The translations under genes were made by a program, and so were the position numbers. The notes below the pieces were generated by a model that was not told where the DNA came from, did not search any database, and worked only from the letters and a program-made list of their open reading frames with translations. From assembly GCA_026545225.1 (NCBI GenBank), contig CM048850.1, forward strand, positions 6,576,001 through 6,640,000: a stretch of 64,000 nucleotides of DNA. The letters run 5' to 3'. Positions 3,426-13,197 of the stretch are shown one piece after another. This DNA comes from Cornus controversa. Lineage: Eukaryota; Streptophyta; Magnoliopsida; Cornales; Cornaceae. Position 1 is the first letter of the stretch. Every line of letters begins with the position of its first letter.

Positions 3426-4406
3426 ACCACATTTTCTCATTTTCTCACAATGGCCCTATATATAAATGTCAAACATATAATAATCAAGCATTTCATTTCA
3501 TGCTTATTACAATACAATGCATAAGCTAGTTTAATGAGTACATAGCATGCATTCCCCTTTACGCAACTACACACATAATCACATATACGTGTAAAACCTA
3601 GCATACTATTCACATATGCTCCTAAATCTCACTTAAGCACATTTTAACCATGCTTTACCCAGTGCATACATTTTCAATACGAAAGATAGCATGCATTCAA
3701 TTCACATAACAATACATATAATCACGTATATGTCAAATCTTGCATATAAGTCCTATATGCCTACCATTCTCCAATTTAGCATGTAATGGTCATGCTCCAT
3801 CTAATGTATGTATTTATTACTAGTGCCTAGCATGCATTCCAGTCACATCACCGACACATAATCACATACATGTCAAATCCTGCATATAAATCACATATGC
3901 ACGTATACTAGCATAAAATACAATCATGCTCTCATTCAATGCATGCATTTACTATAAACAACTAGCATGCATTCCACGCACACCGACATATAATTACCTA
4001 CATGTCACATCCTGCATATAAATCACATATACTAGCATAAATATGATCATGTTATCACTCAATGCATGCATTTACTATAAGTACCAAACATGCATTCCAA
4101 TCACAATATATACTCACATATATATTATGTTACCCATATATGTATTATGCACATATATCACGCTTAGCATGTATCATGATTTTCAAATGCTCATTAATGC
4201 TATAATCATATTTAGCATACATTTCTACTACTACACAAATATATAATCACATATATATTTAACCTATACATAAAATCTACCTATGCATACGAAACAACAC
4301 TTAGTTAAACATATGTTATTTAGCCTACTTTGCATGGGTTCACCTACATCATATACATATCACAATGTAAACAAGCATTTAAAATATCATGCTTTCATTT
4401 TCAAAC

Positions 4407-4437
<31 letters not shown>

Positions 4438-4440
4438 TAT
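4407..4440. repeat. (AT)n microsatellite
   Basis: Uninterrupted (AT)n of about 25 bp followed by a degenerate AT stretch, inside the solo LTR. Confidence 0.9.
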
Positions 4441-5570
4441 ATGCACCTATATATATATACATATCACATATGATCAAATTAAGGAGCATATGTAAATTAA
4501 TCAACATAATTAAAATATACGTAGGAGATAGAGGCAAAAATCAACTTACCTTAGGTCCTACTTTCACTAAGCCCGTGCTTGCAAAGCGGCCCATTTCCAT
4601 GTCCAGTCTAGTCCCGTGTCATAGTCCATTTCATTGTCCATGAATTTGGCCTAATTCAATTAGGCAAACCAATTTCATCTAATTTCATTTCAATTGCCCA
4701 AACTCATGTAACCAGGCAGCCCAATTCGAGACCAAATAACCCAAATCAACTATGACTAGCCACCATTAGCTACTAGTGAACTATGTTGCCACCCAAGACC
4801 CATGAATCCCTGGCATCAACCCAAATCAATCACTACCCATCCGAACTAACTAGCCACCGTGGCTTGCTGAATCAACCACCATGCCCAAAACCATGAGCTT
4901 TCTATGCTACCAATCCGAAACTACCATCACGAAGAAGACCCATTCGCCGTGAAGCTGAAGGCCTAACAGCCCAGCAGCCACCATGGCTATCCGCCACAGT
5001 CGGTACTCACCTTCACAGCCCATTGCCCAGTTGTGAACCACCCAAACTGAACCCAATTCATACGACCTGAGCTTAACAGAAGCTCCCATGGCCGTCGCTT
5101 ATGCCGAAGAGCTGTTACGGGCTACCTAAATGACCTGTTACCACTGTTAAAACTCGTCACTTTCCTCGGCACCAGCTCCATCAGAACCAACCAAGGAGAA
5201 CCCATCTCACTCAAACAACTAACCAAAACTCGCCAGAACCAACAGCCACCAACCAAGCCGGAGTCACCACCTCCATCTCCCTCAATCACAGTAGTGAAGG
5301 ACCATCAACCGAACCCATAATCGTCACTTCCATCGGTTGAACCAAACCAACCCACCAAGGTCAGCCTCTTCAGCACCACCCTGATCGGTTACCATCATCA
5401 TCACCACCTGCAACTCGCTATGTATAGCCGAGCCTTGAAGATCCAGACACCATCTGAAACCTAGCCGTGAAAACCCAGTCGAGTCTCCACCGCCGGACAC
5501 CACTATGGTCAGACCACCTCATAGCCGCTACAAGAGCCGAGACCACTAGGAAGGAACCCCATAACCATCC

Positions 5571-5819
5571 TGTAGTAACCCTTGTGGACGGGTGTGAGTG
5601 GGCGAGTGCGACGAAAGACACTGGGCTGAGCTACCACATTGACAGGGTACAGGGTGCTCAATCCCACATCGCCTGGGTGTAGAAAAGGGGATGTGCTTAT
5701 ATGTAGTATGTTCTCTTTAAATGAATGAGGCATTTTGGGGTAAAACCCAAGAGCAAAACTGGGCGGGTTTAGGCCCAAAGCGAACAATATCATACCATGT
5801 GTTGGAGCAGGGTATTACA
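5571..5819 (+). repeat. TRIM LTR1
   Basis: 249 bp. Carries the AATGAATGAGG variant and GCGGGTTTAGGCCC, shared in essence with LTR3 and different from LTR2/LTR4. Confidence 0.9.
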
Positions 5820-5821
5820 GT

Positions 5822-5834
5822 TGGTATCAAAGCC
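5822..5834 (+). promoter_or_regulatory. TRIM primer-binding site 1
   Basis: TGGTATCAAAGCC, tRNA-iMet type with one change from the consensus, two bases after LTR1. The polypurine tract GTAGGGGGGTGGAT precedes LTR2. Confidence 0.85.
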
Positions 5835-5889
5835 TGAACCCAGCCGAAAGTGTGCCGACGAGGAGGTCGGGCCTCGTAGGGGGGTGGAT

Positions 5890-6139
5890 TGTAGTAACCC
5901 TTGTGGATGGGTGTGAGTGGGCGGGTGCGAAGACAGACACTGGGCTGAGCTACTACACTGACAGGGTACAGTGTGCTCAATCCCACATCGCCTAAGTGTG
6001 GAAAAGGGAATGTGCTTATATGTATTATGTTCTCTTCAAATGGTATGAGGCCTTTTGGGGTAAAACCCAAGAGCAAAATTGTGCGGGCTTAGGCCCAAAG
6101 CGGACAATATCATACCATGTGTTGGAACGGGGTATTACA
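5890..6139 (+). repeat. TRIM LTR2
   Basis: 250 bp. Carries the AATGGTATGAGG variant shared with LTR4. Confidence 0.9.
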
Positions 6140-6145
6140 GTTTAT

Positions 6146-6394
6146 TGTAGTAACCCTTGTGGACGGGTGTGAGTGGGCGGGTGCGAAGACCGACACTAGG
6201 CTGAGCTACTACACTGACAGGGTACAGGGTACTCAATCCCACATTGCTTGGGTGTGAAAAAGGGGATGTGCTTATATGTATTATGTTCTCTTCAAATAAA
6301 TGAGGCCTTTTGGGGTAAAATCCAAGAGCAAAATCGTGCGGGTTTAGGTCCAAAGCGGATAATATCATACCATGTGTTGGAGCGGGGTATTACA
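6146..6394 (+). repeat. TRIM LTR3
   Basis: 249 bp. Carries AATAAATGAGG and GCGGGTTTAGG, like LTR1. It begins six bases after LTR2. Confidence 0.9.
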
Positions 6395-6396
6395 GT

Positions 6397-6409
6397 TGGT
6401 ATCAGAGCC
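6397..6409 (+). promoter_or_regulatory. TRIM primer-binding site 2
   Basis: TGGTATCAGAGCC, a consensus tRNA-iMet primer site two bases after LTR3. Confidence 0.88.
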
Positions 6410-6464
6410 TGAACCCAGCTGAAAGTGTGTCGACGAGGACGTCGGGCCTCGTAGGGGGGTGGAT

Positions 6465-6714
6465 TGTAGTAACCCTTGTGGACGGGTGTGAGTGAGCTGG
6501 TGCGAAGATAGACACTGGGCTGAGCTACCACACTGACAGGGTATAAGGTGTTCAATCCCACATCGCCTGGGTGTGGAAAAGGGGATGTGCTTATATGTAG
6601 TATATTCTCTTCAAATGGTATGAGGCCTTTTGGGGTAAAACCCAAGAGCAAAATCGTGTGGGCTCAGGCCCAAAGCAGATAATATCATATCATGTGTTGG
6701 GGCGAGGTATTACA
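6465..6714 (+). repeat. TRIM LTR4
   Basis: 250 bp. Carries AATGGTATGAGG, like LTR2, and ends GGTATTACA at the right boundary of the array. Confidence 0.9.
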
Positions 6715-7033
6715 AATCCATCACCTCCACCATCAGGGCCGGAATCAGTCCCTCTTTCTCTCTCTCGATTTCTCTTCTTCTTCTTTTCTTTTCTCTTTCT
6801 TTCTTTTCTCTTTTCCCATTCTCAGCCAACCACATGGTCTACCTTTAATTTGAATCCTTACCTTGTGCTCGCATACACCACATGTTTGGTTGACCATCCT
6901 CATCCACTCACCCACATATATACATAAAAATATTATATATCTATATATATAACACTACATGTGAACATACTTAAATACATAATTATCTACATGTATCTCC
7001 ACACATTTATAATTTAATATAAATATATCCACC

Positions 7034-7140: not shown

Positions 7141-7852
7141 TATATATAATTTCATTTATATATATATTCGTATCTTTTCAAAATTAAATAATTCAAAAAA
7201 AGAAAACTCAGTCAAAAATCATCCAGAATCTGTCAAAAATAATCCAATCCTTACACCTTTTTTGATTTTCAAATCATTTTTTGCTCCAACGAGCCGCTTT
7301 CGGTCTTTTCGCTACAAGAAAATAGGCTTTTTACGGCAGGCAAAAATGGCTTTTACGGCGGTTTTAGTCCGTCGTGGTATCCGGTGTCATAGAAGCTTAA
7401 GGACTTTCTACCACAGGTTCAGCCCATGGTAGAAAGTATATTTTTAACCACGGGGCCCAGCCCATGGTAAAAAGTGTATTTTTTTTAAAAAAAAATTGTA
7501 TGCTTTACATATACATTGTTCCCAACACAAAAACCTCCCATATAAATTAGTTGAGCAACTATCCGATCGAACTTAGCATTATAAGAAAACTAATAACTAT
7601 ATTGTATTCAGGTAGCAGGCCTGAAACTACGTTCCTGCTTATTCAAACTATATTGAAGCCCATTACAACTACAAAATATCTTTTAATTAACTCGTATACA
7701 CCTCATATGCTCTTAAAAATTACACAATGGAGTTTCAAATATATACTCAATGGGTTTAGATTCTGAAGGAATTAAAGAATGTCCATGTGTACCTTCATGT
7801 GGTGGGATAAGAATTGAATGTCCTTGTCTCGTGCATCTATGTGTACCAATTT

Positions 7853-8238
7853 TTATATCTTGTCAATTCCCTCATTTTTAGTAGAAACTTTTCCTGAACT
7901 TCGGCCATTCATCCTCCGAAATGAGCTCATGGTTGACAAAATTTTGAAGCTACTGCTGCCCTCACTGATGTTAAAAGACTTTCTAGATCTAGTTGGTCCT
8001 AAGGTACTGAATTCTAGTTCTCTACTCTTGTTTGTTTTGACCTTGGCAACAACTAGTTGAGTAATGCTGCCTCGACAAAAGGGGCAAACTGGGCCTTTGG
8101 ACAAGCAGAGGCAGAGCTTGGTTTGTTGTGACAGTACAAAGCTAGAGTGCAAGAGGCACACATTTGGAGACCGCATTTTTTAACCTCAATTGTGCAGACC
8201 TAATCAAAGCAAATGCAGCATAACTCGACATCGTTGGC
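7853..8238 (-). pseudogene. XBAT-type E3 ligase fragment: RING and C-terminal exon
   Basis: Captured last exon of an ankyrin-RING (XBAT32/33-like) ubiquitin ligase. After an acceptor-like CAG at 8239-8241 it encodes LCCICFD-stop-VCTIEV, then CASCTLALYCHNKP, then after a frameshift GPVCPFCRGSITQLVVAK and a serine-rich SEGSSSFK tail, ending at a stop near 7853. The ring residues CxxC are present, but the CGHQMC-type histidine is Leu (CGLQMC). One Gln codon is TAG and the frame shifts before PVCPFC, so no functional RING can be made. Confidence 0.85.
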
Positions 8239-8884
8239 CTGTCAAGAAGTACTCTTCCAAGTGAATAACAAGGTGTATACTTTGAAGATTGATAGGAAAA
8301 GCATAACGCAGATTTAAAGAAAATGTAAGCAGAAGGTATAATATAGAAAAGTAGGTGCATAGTTTGAAGATATGTAGGAAATACGGTCGTGATAGTTATA
8401 GATTTAAAGAGAAGTTAACTTTTTTAAATAGATAAAAAATTGCAAAACTCTTTTCTTTGTTTTTTTTTTCTGTTTACAATTCATTATCTTAACAAAAAGT
8501 ATAACCAAATGATGTTTAAAAATGTCAGTAGCTCTGGTGAGGTAATGATCCACATGCTTCCTTGTGTGGTGGATGCATTTATCTCAAAGTTGAGCAAGAT
8601 AGTAGGAACTAGAAACCATTTCTTCTCAAATTCTTAAGGGATTCTTTCACTAATATAAGAGTGACGTGACATAAAAATCAAAGGATGATCATTAGGAAAC
8701 TTGTTTTATCGCATCTGAACATTTGTGACACTATATTTCTGCCAAACACATATCCTATGTAAAGGAACAGAATTGGTGTGGTATATAATGTGTACACACA
8801 CACACACACACAAGGAAAAGACAAACTGATTTCAGTCTACATGGTCATAAGAATTTAAACCAAAAACTAAAAACTTTATAATAC

Positions 8885-9133
8885 CTCAGACATGTCATTG
8901 CCAGCCTCAAAACCAAAGTGCAAAGATGATGGAAGTGAGTAGACTATCTCATTGAATATGCCTTTTTCCCTCTCCCTGTTTGCCTCTATTAAGGCTTTCT
9001 CTAATAGAGCTTTTGCTTCTGGATTGAGCTCAGAAAATAACTTCAAAGGTGATGACCAGACAAGAGGCTTTGGAGATGAAGGGTTGCACATGCTCCATGC
9101 TTGTGCTTCAGGGCAACCATGTGAGGCATTCTC
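8885..9133 (-). pseudogene. XBAT-type E3 ligase fragment: exon before the RING
   Basis: Acceptor TTTACAG, then RMPHMVALKHKHGACA, a frameshift that looks like a small deletion, then NPSSPKPLVWSSPLKLFSEL and NPEAKALLEKALIEANRERE, ending at a donor-like GAG|GTAT. The order and wording follow the region between ankyrin repeats and RING in XBAT proteins. Intron sequence separates it from the neighbouring fragments. Confidence 0.85.
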
Positions 9134-9762
9134 CTGTAAAGTACCCATAGATAATGATAAGTTTTACTTGCAAATGTTCACAGTTGATAACTTTTGTCAT
9201 CAATTACATACAGAATAAACCTTCCACAATCAAGATACAAATGGAACCAAAAGAGTATGAATTAAGTATGTGTGTGCTAGATATACAATGGATCATCGAA
9301 ATCGAAATCAAGTTACAATGAACATACACACAAAAAGCGTTCTATAACTTCTTAAAGTTAGCTCAATAAATCCTTCTCAGTATCATCATATATTCTTCTA
9401 AATCATATTCCTCAAGTCTCTAACCACATTCTCTTTTTCATTCCTCTCATTATTATAACTTTGAACCCAATTACTCTTGGTAACCATAGCAATTGATCTT
9501 AGAGGAAGATGTAGTTTGACCACGAAAGAAACTTTTAAATTTTAGCAAGTTCAGTTATGCAAAAAGGAAATTCCCAGGGAATCTACTTTATGCTTCAACT
9601 TTTATTCCTATCTCTGGTCTAACAGCATTCTAGATTTTGTATGACAGAGATCAAGGAATAAAAATTGATTTCACCAACAAGAAGCTTAAAATTGACCAAG
9701 TTAAGTTTTAGCCAAATTTTAAATTCAAAGTACTATAATCTGAAATGTTTACAAAGTCTTAC

Positions 9763-9862
9763 CCAGATGAATCTCGTTGCAAACGATCTGTGCCTCAAGC
9801 AAGTAATTACTACACACAGTCCGAATAACCTCCACGAGCTGTCATATGAAGTGGTGTACTCC
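9763..9862 (-). pseudogene. XBAT-type E3 ligase fragment: ankyrin exon with stops
   Basis: Encodes STPLHMTARGGYSDCV, two stop codons, LLA, another stop, then GTDRLQRDSSG before a donor GG|GTAAG. It matches the ankyrin segment that follows GGYG in XBAT proteins. The three stops show decay after capture. The left exon edge is approximate. Confidence 0.8.
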
Positions 9863-9953
9863 CTAGGTAGTTACAAGTGGAACTTTTATCAACTTAAAAG
9901 ACAAAATAACACTGCCTCTACAATTTATAAAAGAGCTTCATTAAGATTGTTAC

Positions 9954-10081
9954 CCATATCCGCCGGTAGAAACATAAACTAGTGCTCCACTGTCTAACAG
10001 AGTATGAAGACACTCTGGGCACCTTTGTCGGGCTGCCAAGTGTAGTGGAGTTGCTCCATTTCTATCCCTTTCATTCTCCAT
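9954..10081 (-). pseudogene. XBAT-type E3 ligase fragment: ankyrin exon
   Basis: Between an AG acceptor and a GG|GTAAC donor this encodes NERDRNGATPLHLAARQRCP then ECLHTLLDSGALVYVSTGGYG, a clear ankyrin repeat of the XBAT family. The frame is open within this exon. It is the first XBAT exon after the PGK fragments on the minus strand. Confidence 0.87.
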
Positions 10082-10544
10082 CTTGCAATACAAAATTGCA
10101 TGACTTAGACAAATGAAATTAATATCCAACAAATTGATGAAATTGATCCCCAAGCATAGTTTTCTAGAATATAACTACCACTAGTATGAACACTCAAGAA
10201 TACTCCTCACTTAAATAATTACAGAACAGGATGAACCTCAAAGATCATATATTAATGCCAGAATTTGATAAAGAGGAAAAAGGCCAAAAATGATGAATAC
10301 ACATACATTACAGAGCTTTTTCAATCATAACATATAAATCAAACCTCAGTTGAAGCATATTCATTATTTATAGATGTCATTGTTTGAAAAGAACCACTAT
10401 ATAGATTAACCTATGAAAAATATAAAAACTATTTACCAATCAAAAGTTCCTATATGTGATGAATAAGATTTTATGTGTGATGAATGTCCATCTTAAAAAC
10501 TAAAATGTCATTATAAGCATCAATCCCATATCCAAGTAGCATAC

Positions 10545-10703
10545 CTCTATTCCCGCTACAAACTTCTCGAACTCAAACACACCCATAGGTCCATTCCATA
10601 TGATAGTTTTAGTACTATCCAGTGCTTCACTGAAAGTCTTGATCGAATTAGGTCCAATGTCCAACCCCATCCAACCATCCGGGATGCAAGATGCTGGCAC
10701 AAC
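10545..10703 (-). pseudogene. PGK: Phosphoglycerate kinase fragment, downstream exon
   Basis: Acceptor TGCAG, then 53 open codons: [53 protein letters not shown], then a donor GAG|GTATG. This is the C-terminal nucleotide-binding part of PGK, the glycolysis/Calvin-cycle enzyme that interconverts 1,3-bisphosphoglycerate and 3-phosphoglycerate. Only this piece and the exon at 11168-11485 are present; the N-lobe and last exon (GGGDSVAAVEK region) are absent, so it cannot encode an enzyme. Confidence 0.92.
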
Positions 10704-11167
10704 CTGCACAAGTAATGCTTGAAATTTATTAGCTAGCACACACTATTACATTACAAATAAAAAAAAATGATTTAGAATTATCCATTTCACCTATAGTGTT
10801 GATCTTTTGTAGGTTCCCCAAATCACGACCTCCCCTTATTTAACAAAAATACGCACAATTAACTTTTCTATAATTTCTGCATAGGAAGAAATATTCTTAT
10901 ACAGCCCTAGTAAGAATAAAATTCAAGTTTATCCATTCATATTCTTCTTTTCTATGTAAGCAAACAAGGGTATTTAAAAGTAGAACCAATGCAAAAAGTC
11001 CCAATATTTTCATTGAATTTCAGCATTTTAATGTGCTTACAACAATTATTTATTTATAATCCTTTTTTAGTGTAGAAGTAGTAGATCAAGTTGAATACAT
11101 TTTTCTCATCTCTTTCTACCTAACATTCTTAGGCTGCAATGAGATTTCAACGGGCAGAAGAACAAAC

Positions 11168-11485
11168 GTTGCTGTTAGCATCTGGAGCAAATTTGTCAGC
11201 ATTAACCACATCGGTTGGTAGCAATAGAGAAACCCCTTTGGACTTGGCCTTCTCAAGAAATGAAGTTGCAAGATCAAGCTTGTCTTCCTCCATAAGAGAT
11301 GATCCTACAAAGTATCCTTGGGCTTTATAAAATGTTAATATCATACCTCCACCCAGCAGCAGAATATCAACCTTCGCCAAGAGAGACTCCATTACCTCAA
11401 TCTTAGTTGAAACTTTTGAGCCACCAACAATGGTAGCAAAAGGCTTCTTGGGATTTGCCACGGCTCCCACCAGGTAATCAAGTTC
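11168..11485 (-). pseudogene. PGK: Phosphoglycerate kinase fragment, middle exon
   Basis: Acceptor TTTTAG, then 106 open codons beginning [20 protein letters not shown], through [18 protein letters not shown] and [17 protein letters not shown], to [10 protein letters not shown] and a GT donor. Both exon borders fall where the next captured exon (VVPAS...) should join, so the source intron came along. Several residues differ from usual PGK (for example KIEVME for KIGVIE), suggesting relaxed constraint. No stop is seen inside this exon. Confidence 0.92.
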
Positions 11486-12055
11486 CTAAAAAGGCACATG
11501 GTTTCAAAGTTCAATGAATTGGTAAGCAACAAAAACATGCAATAAAAATCTCGCTGTATTAATGCACTTCAAAAGTTTCTTTGATAAAATGGGCAATCAT
11601 GACCATGATAAAATGAATAAATTATAAGAATTATATAGGTAAACATTGAAAAGAAAAAATCCATGCTAAGAATGAACTTTTAGTTGCATCACTAAGAGTT
11701 CGCTAGATTGAATGTTGTAGTTCAAATCTTTAATATAAACACCGAGAATGATAAATCAATGATCAAACACTAAAAATATAATAAAAACTGGACAGTAGCG
11801 ACAAAATTTCAACATTCAATTTGGGAAAAAATAAACTCAACACAGAATAAGCGTAAATTCAACGCAAGCATATATCAATTTTGTACGCCTGTGAAAGTGT
11901 CACTACAATTAATTTATAAATCACCAAATCTCAATCAAGTGTGCATGTGAGTGTGTATACAAACTGAAATACGTGCGTCTATGGGTGTGTAGAGAGAGAG
12001 AGAGAAAATTATTCCAGTAAAAGGATTTCTCAAACTTTGAAACCATACTCACAGA

Positions 12056-12534
12056 TCAAAAAAAGCTTAAATCATTGCCAAACAAGATTAAAATCAACCC
12101 AAGAATTATTCTAGTGGCTGTCGACGCGATCAACGACTTCATTGTTGCCCCCCGCCACGGTGACTGTTCGGGTTTCACCGGCAAAACCACCGATGCGGCT
12201 TGAGATGAAACATTTTGGCTTGAAGCAGTAGATCTGAGTCTTGAATGGAGATTGAATGACAATGATGGTTTGGATCTGAGGAGTACGCTGGACTCGTTGT
12301 AGCCATTGTTGGGTGGTGCCACTACGAGGTTGAACGGCGGTGTGGTGGGACTACACCTTGTCGATTCGCGCTCCTTCCTCGCTGGAGGCTTCGAACGCTC
12401 TTGCCAGCGTACCCACCTGACTGGCAGCGGCGCGTAAGCTGTCGTGTTCGAGAGAGAGAGAGAGAGATGCTGTGTATCCTAATCATCTCCCTTGGACTAG
12501 CAATTTCAACAAATTTTATTTTCATTTGGTGCAA
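12056..12534 (-). other. Possible 5' exon/leader of a third captured gene (unidentified)
   Basis: Minus-strand sequence upstream of the PGK exons has a (GA/CT)n run like a plant 5' leader (12450-12470), moderate GC content, and an ATG at about 12304. An overlapping open frame (12322-12056) contains SSQAASVVLPVKPEQSPWRG. I do not recognise the source. It is not typical of PGK transit peptides or of XBAT N-termini. It could be a third captured first exon or simple transposon sequence. Confidence 0.35.
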
Positions 12535-12779
12535 AATGGTGTTCGGATGATAGAGAGAGTGTGAGAGAGATGAAATTTTGAAAAAAACGTGACAAAGAAT
12601 GAGAGAAAGGCTAGTGAGAGATTGAATGGTGACCTGAAATCAATCGTGTCCCTTTTTTCCAATATTCATGAGAGGGGTTTGTTAGCAAACAAGACAGAGC
12701 ACATGGAATAAGGTTTCAAAAAGGGTTTAGGTGGCAGCTTAATTTTTGTGTGTGCAGAACGAAAAAAATAGACCTTCCG

Positions 12780-13025
12780 TCACGGGCTATGGTCGTGATA
12801 AACATAAAACATTTCAGCACGAGCTTTGCCTGTCGTGTAAAGTCTCTTTTTACCACTGGCCCAAGTAGCCCGTGGTGAAAATTATTTTCTACGACGGGCT
12901 ATGCGGGCCCGTCGTAGAAAATGACTTTCCACCATGGGCTACACTAGCCCACCGTAGAAAGTGACTTTCCACCACGGGCTATGCGAGCCCGTCGTAAAAA
13001 GCCTGTCGTTAAAGGCTAAATTTAT
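12780..13025. repeat. CACTA subterminal repeats, right end
   Basis: Repeated units of 'cacgggcta..agcccgtcgta' separated by 'gaaagtgactttcc', at least five in direct or inverted orientation. The matching left cluster is at about 7325-7480. Such arrays bind transposase in CACTA elements. Confidence 0.8.
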
Positions 13026-13197
13026 TGTAGTGTTCCGTCACTCCAATGAGTTGCATTTGTCTACTGAGCCGCTCTTTTGCAGCTTCTATGTATGTGTTCG
13101 CAGCCATAGTTGGTAATATCACCAGATTGCTTTTGTGAGCCGCATTCAAGATTTTGTCTCCAAGCTAAAGTTGGCTTTATATAACTCACTTTAAGTT

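Follow-up and report, generated by a model that had tools for sequence, protein, structure and literature searches.

The window analysed here, 64,000 nucleotides of the Cornus controversa genome (C6:6576001-6640000 of a 772-Mb assembly, G000), contains a whole non-autonomous CACTA element of 5,723 bp (7310..13032) that is almost certainly a Pack-CACTA whose host gene pieces were captured at the DNA level. Three such pieces were found in it, from an XBAT31-like gene, a phosphoglycerate kinase (PGK) gene and an intron of a WEB-family gene, all on the minus strand; the element and its own parts are given without strand. Taken as a whole, the observations are best explained, with a probability of about 0.85, by a non-autonomous CACTA lineage that gained host DNA in several steps. 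The original prediction had placed two PGK exons and the last four exons of an XBAT gene, including the stop, in minus-strand direction inside one CACTA element, and this is borne out. The stop-codon exon of XBAT31 ends at position 7853, and the first PGK exon begins at 11485; both PGK exons match the Pfam PGK model (2.9e-34 and 1.7e-18) and the XBAT part corresponds to exons 5-8, numbered after the donor gene model of this analysis. Chance protein similarity was rejected on the strength of the Pfam matches and the donor loci described below.

The left tip of the element is CGCTACAAG at 7310, one change from the canonical form, and its right tip ends in TTGTAGTG at 13032, with an exact TAGTG. 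CACTACAAG is the left tip in two of the four relatives read; the left tips of the relatives on C2, C7 and C10 (C10a) read CACTACAA and that of a second C10 relative (C10b) reads CAGTACAAG, so that the window element and its relatives all display CACTA-type terminal inverted repeats. The target-site copies of the window element, TTT (7307..7309) and TTC (13033..13035), differ by one mismatch, while the four relatives read at both ends show exact 3-bp duplications (CAA, ATG, ATA and TTT), the length typical of CACTA (En/Spm) elements. Subterminal repeats, likewise characteristic of this class, are present in the left arm (7310..7540), where a motif recurs in both orientations, and near the right end as 3.4 copies of a 40-bp unit (12867..13000). 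The left arm has no match above 120 bits at the XBAT31 donor. The right arm (11741..13032), for which 40 of 655 first-look genome candidates were scored, belongs to the CACTA family itself. It is the segment predicted as an unknown leader preceding PGK and XBAT: the order holds, but the leader is not foreign, and the WEB piece had been overlooked. A frame in the leader region of the C2 relative was also considered as a captured exon and rejected, its 42 matches including known elements and weaker scattered hits, with no gene donor standing out. A stretch of CACTA body (10206..10406), common to elements lacking XBAT, lies between the captured pieces. We found no TNP2-type transposase frame within the element, the longest stop-to-stop frame being 140 aa, and the element is therefore non-autonomous; Transposase_21 is abundant elsewhere in the genome, with 150 matches from 150 scored among 492 candidates, those listed being over the cut-off.

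The XBAT31 piece (7541..10088) comprises exons 5-8, their introns and 3' flank, its final ~20 bp forming the join to the WEB piece. Its donor, at C4:67998883-68001143, is an eight-exon gene with a 443-aa frame and is 88-93% identical over the last four exons; window 7541-10088 aligns with positions 4384-6644 of this locus (L013) in three blocks of 92.7, 88.3 and 92.1%. A second XBAT31-like gene, on C3, is less closely related, at 60% over 72 aa. Exon 5, which matches ankyrin (2e-6), aligns at 9954..10094 with a deletion junction in place of its 5' edge and acceptor; exon 6 (9763..9870) has lost its acceptor (CAG in the donor, TAA here) and contains three in-frame stops; exon 7 (8885..9133) has intact splice sites and a 10-bp deletion also found in the C10a sister; and exon 8 (7853..8238), encoding the RING, keeps the native stop but is interrupted by a TAG within the RING and has lost 1 bp. 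The XB3/XBAT31 RING match is full in the donor (9.4e-23) and falls to 0.018 in the window. The claim that exon edges still carry GT donors and AG acceptors thus stands for all five donors and for four of the six acceptors, and fails for exons 5 and 6. Among 298 codons compared with the donor, 21 differ synonymously, 38 non-synonymously, four are stops and five are gapped, and divergence is similar in exons (0.087) and non-exon sequence (0.078). Selection on the XBAT part was rejected on account of the four stops, the frame broken in exons 6, 7 and 8 and this similar divergence; with four stops and two deletions, it is a dead passenger.

The PGK piece (10405..11742, reaching 11748 by BLAST) runs from the end of one intron through exon A (11168..11485; 106 open codons), an intron and exon B (10545..10703; 53 open codons) into the start of the next intron, so that both its ends fall within introns; both exons retain AG and GT. 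A genome search with 10405-11748 returned 10 matches, covering six loci besides the window: the donor, three further element copies and two PGK genes matching at the exons only. The donor (C5:47500859-47502198, L012) is 95% identical end to end, over two exons and an intron, and holds the remaining PGK exons as well (probe residues 76-477 covered, in pieces). The further copies lie on C10, at C5:24.46-24.47 Mb (in two pieces) and, partially, on C1, bringing the detected PGK-bearing elements to four. Open PGK frames are kept by the window and C5 copies, and C10a has a broken one, with a frameshift and a stop in exon B. Selection on PGK was considered and rejected. An open frame is what chance allows, the probability of no stop in 15 random changes being ~0.62. 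All 14 changed codons are non-synonymous; with the 15 changes placed together on one neutral branch, the probability of this is 0.006-0.016, depending on which transition bias is assumed. Since the changes unique to the window fall on conserved residues and part of the differences arose in the donor, we read the captured PGK as a drifting passenger. The donor itself carries its own changes in exon A at codons 8 (A to V) and 47 (G to A), at residues common to both other PGK genes, and may therefore also be drifting. The captured PGK intron of the C5 sister (L010+L011) harbours an insert of ~11 kb with a long gag-pol-like frame, described here as an LTR retrotransposon.

The third piece (10069..10205; 137 bp) is 92% identical to an intron of a WEB-family gene (Pfam WEMBL) on C3; ~20 bp of it, similar in sequence, lie within the XBAT31 span. 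With scoring limited to the best candidates, at least 12 elements carry XBAT31 and lack PGK; three of them (C2, C10b and C7) were read whole. The C2 relative (L014+L015) is a mosaic. Its XBAT31 sequence is followed by 579 bp, inverted, from between exon-like frames of a C6 gene (Pfam FMN_red), by 46 bp of XBAT31 again, resumed 46 bp further on, by 272 bp that are 96% identical to a kinesin gene on C4, by 305 bp of the WEB-family intron and then by element body. Beyond the Pfam labels FMN_red and WEMBL, the names FQR1-like, used below for the C6 gene, and WEB are our assumption. By BLAST bounds, the successive joins show an overlap of 8 bp, an overlap of 1 bp, 5 bp of filler, an overlap of 2 bp and ~25 bp of filler, the last being the first ~25 bp of the CACTA body at 10206..10406. 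Across the 12 elements, this dissected stretch matches whole in eight, with a break in two and without its middle, kinesin included, in two; the kinesin piece is thus present in 10. The lineage has therefore drawn on at least five donors (XBAT31, PGK, WEB, kinesin and FQR1-like), with joins of 1-8 bp overlaps or short filler. Pieces from all five include intron sequence, which indicates copying from DNA; in agreement with this, the predicted DNA-level capture of unrelated genes is upheld by PGK and XBAT31 donors that lie on different contigs and match through introns. The kinesin (C4:67934651) and XBAT31 (C4:67998883) donors are 64 kb apart, the other three being on other contigs.

The relatives also inform the order of events. 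XBAT31 occurs in the 12 PGK-less elements as well as in the copies of the window, C10a and C5, and the WEB piece in the 12, in the window and in C10a; window 9773-10398 is missing from the C5 sister. PGK is limited to one clade, and the PGK elements group together with support of 0.997 in an XBAT tree (three of the four PGK copies, six of the 12 others) and of 1.0 in an arm tree (three of four, C5 being left out for its insert, and eight of 12). Non-coding divergence from the donor is 0.078-0.081 for XBAT31 versus 0.044-0.058 for PGK. Because XBAT31 is both more widely shared and more diverged, both lines say that it was captured before PGK, with the caveat that donor rates may differ. In addition, PGK replaces ~82 bp of CACTA body. 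The C2 relative keeps this stretch, and matches extend across it in each of the 12 XBAT elements without PGK, as well as in four relatives without XBAT (L043, L044, L047 and L048; 5-7 kb read per relative). As PGK-less relatives retain what PGK elements have lost, PGK is the derived state, a later internal addition. One deletion, bounded by two similar stretches of ~20 bp, is common to the copies in the window and C10a. It took out the remainder of XBAT31 together with the beginning of the WEB piece and disrupted exon 5; the donors continue across both of its edges, which makes the deletion derived as well. The FQR1-like and kinesin parts were presumably among the sequence lost. The left arm common to the C5 and C10a sisters, read in C5 without its far left end, differs from that of the window element; the 4.1-kb left arm of the C10 sister (L009:969-5092) is missing from the window element. 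The XBAT-less L047 (near 4656) and L048 (near 347, minus strand) diverge from each other close to the mosaic site of the XBAT elements, possibly a recurrent breakpoint.

Once the host DNA was in place, the lineage moved on: four copies bear PGK, one of them (C10a) with an exact target-site duplication, and the coding DNA of the cargo has its donors (PGK, XBAT31 and the WEB intron) elsewhere, as described for Pack-TYPE elements. In the proposed mechanism, each capture would begin with a break inside the element, and template switching to an unlinked gene would supply the DNA copied in during repair (gap filling); the captured pieces would then be carried as passengers, and copies would spread by transposase supplied in trans. 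We favour gap filling given the small gap at PGK, the excursion from XBAT31 and return to it, and the string of short patches. Our preference is nonetheless a modest one, since the overlaps are short: the PGK junctions overlap the element by 2 bp each (AT and AC), and 1-2 bp overlaps may well be chance by our own reckoning. The filler of 5 bp and ~25 bp at two joins counts against gap filling, as do the single mismatches in the left tip and target-site copy of the window element against the overall reading. Pack-CACTA and Pack-TYPE elements were reportedly the subject of a 2019 study by Catoni. The main competitor is tandem insertion, in which a donor gene becomes flanked by two elements that shed their inner ends and then transpose as a single hybrid; it has been put forward for elements of the Pack-CACTA and Pack-TYPE kinds (PMC8903248, PMC13317346), would equally yield an internal capture, and an insertion-based, local route could also fit the kinesin and XBAT31 donors, 64 kb apart on one contig. 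For PGK, however, it needs two independent terminal deletions ending within ~82 bp of each other, and it sits poorly with a C2 mosaic in which XBAT31 is left for another contig and resumed 46 bp further on. Moreover, the 9.9 kb read around the PGK donor hold no element match above 120 bits next to the gene, and the 9.9 kb read around each of the two donors (PGK and XBAT31) hold no such match to the element's ends; we consider tandem insertion possible but doubtful. PMC13317346 describes the way in which plant TIR elements acquire unlinked genes as unsettled.

Two further origins fare worse. Pack-MULE and Helitron elements carry gene pieces, and PGK could in principle be the cargo of such an element inserted into the CACTA; yet PGK directly adjoins the element at both junctions, ~82 bp were lost instead of a site being duplicated, and the genome search showed copies of the PGK piece only in the four CACTA copies, the donor and, at exon level, two PGK genes, which makes this origin very improbable. 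Least probable of all is a continuous ancestral locus that gained CACTA-like ends later, in favour of which nothing was found. The search for parental loci with introns, as originally suggested, located PGK on C5 and XBAT31 on C4, on separate contigs and neither with the other gene in the stretch read, and the parents were not found in the same arrangement without CACTA ends; for the Cornus controversa genome this reading is already refuted.

The element might also give rise to a spliced PGK-XBAT31 message with a role, as protein or regulatory RNA. On paper, the retained splice sites and the loss of precisely two XBAT acceptors would yield the chain PGK A, PGK B, XBAT 7, XBAT 8, and, since exon 7 lacks 10 bp, the XBAT frame falls in phase with that of PGK, so that 254 codons read through in frame. 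The CACTA element Tgm-Express1 of soybean is spliced into chimeric transcripts, according to PMC1947982. Against this, the 254-codon frame ends within the RING, chains including exon 5 stop after 166 codons, window-only changes hit conserved PGK residues, and the XBAT frame is broken in three exons, weakening the case for a chimeric protein; the C10a sister lacks window 7484-8389, exon 8 included, besides its damaged PGK. A functional message would, judged from sequence, be very unlikely, and a newborn fusion message, or one that might feed small RNAs back on both parents, would be slightly less likely still.

The closest likeness is Tgm-Express1 of the soybean wp allele, which PMC1947982 describes as a CACTA of ~5.7 kb with unrelated host gene fragments, exons and introns included, five of them in one element and with proven chimeric splicing. 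The window element is of about the same size and likewise carries several host fragments with introns; in contrast, it has three pieces in an element and five donors in the lineage, and its donors and pre-capture relatives are compared here, the likeness being one of description. As for Pack-CACTA and Pack-TYPE elements in PMC8903248, it is a non-autonomous TIR element with internal captured coding DNA, although its junctions fit gap filling better than the tandem-insertion model given there. The gap-filling and FoSTeST models for Pack-TIR elements (PMC8277862) share internal capture, a small gap and later multiplication by transposition with the present case, and their short overlaps (median 2 bp) resemble those seen here, which may be chance; they were described in metazoans, while the present lineage is from a plant, and their application to plant Pack-MULEs is called worth exploring there. 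A literature search by title and abstract start returned no earlier report of a PGK-bearing CACTA, which does not prove absence. The element is ordinary by kind, and its history of capture can be read unusually well: one assembly preserves the donors, the relatives from before capture and the stages that followed one another, so that rival capture models make checkable predictions about junctions.

Outside the element, window 5571-6764 holds direct repeats of ~300 nt in an array (spaced at 319, 256 and 319), resembling a TRIM-like element in tandem. Sites like TGGTATCAGAGC occur in it at 5822 and 6397, and we take them to resemble a primer-binding site. The right arm of the C5 sister contains similar translated stretches. 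Two more exact TGGTATCAGAGC sites in the window, at 2039 and 48824, are possible primer-binding sites of LTR elements.
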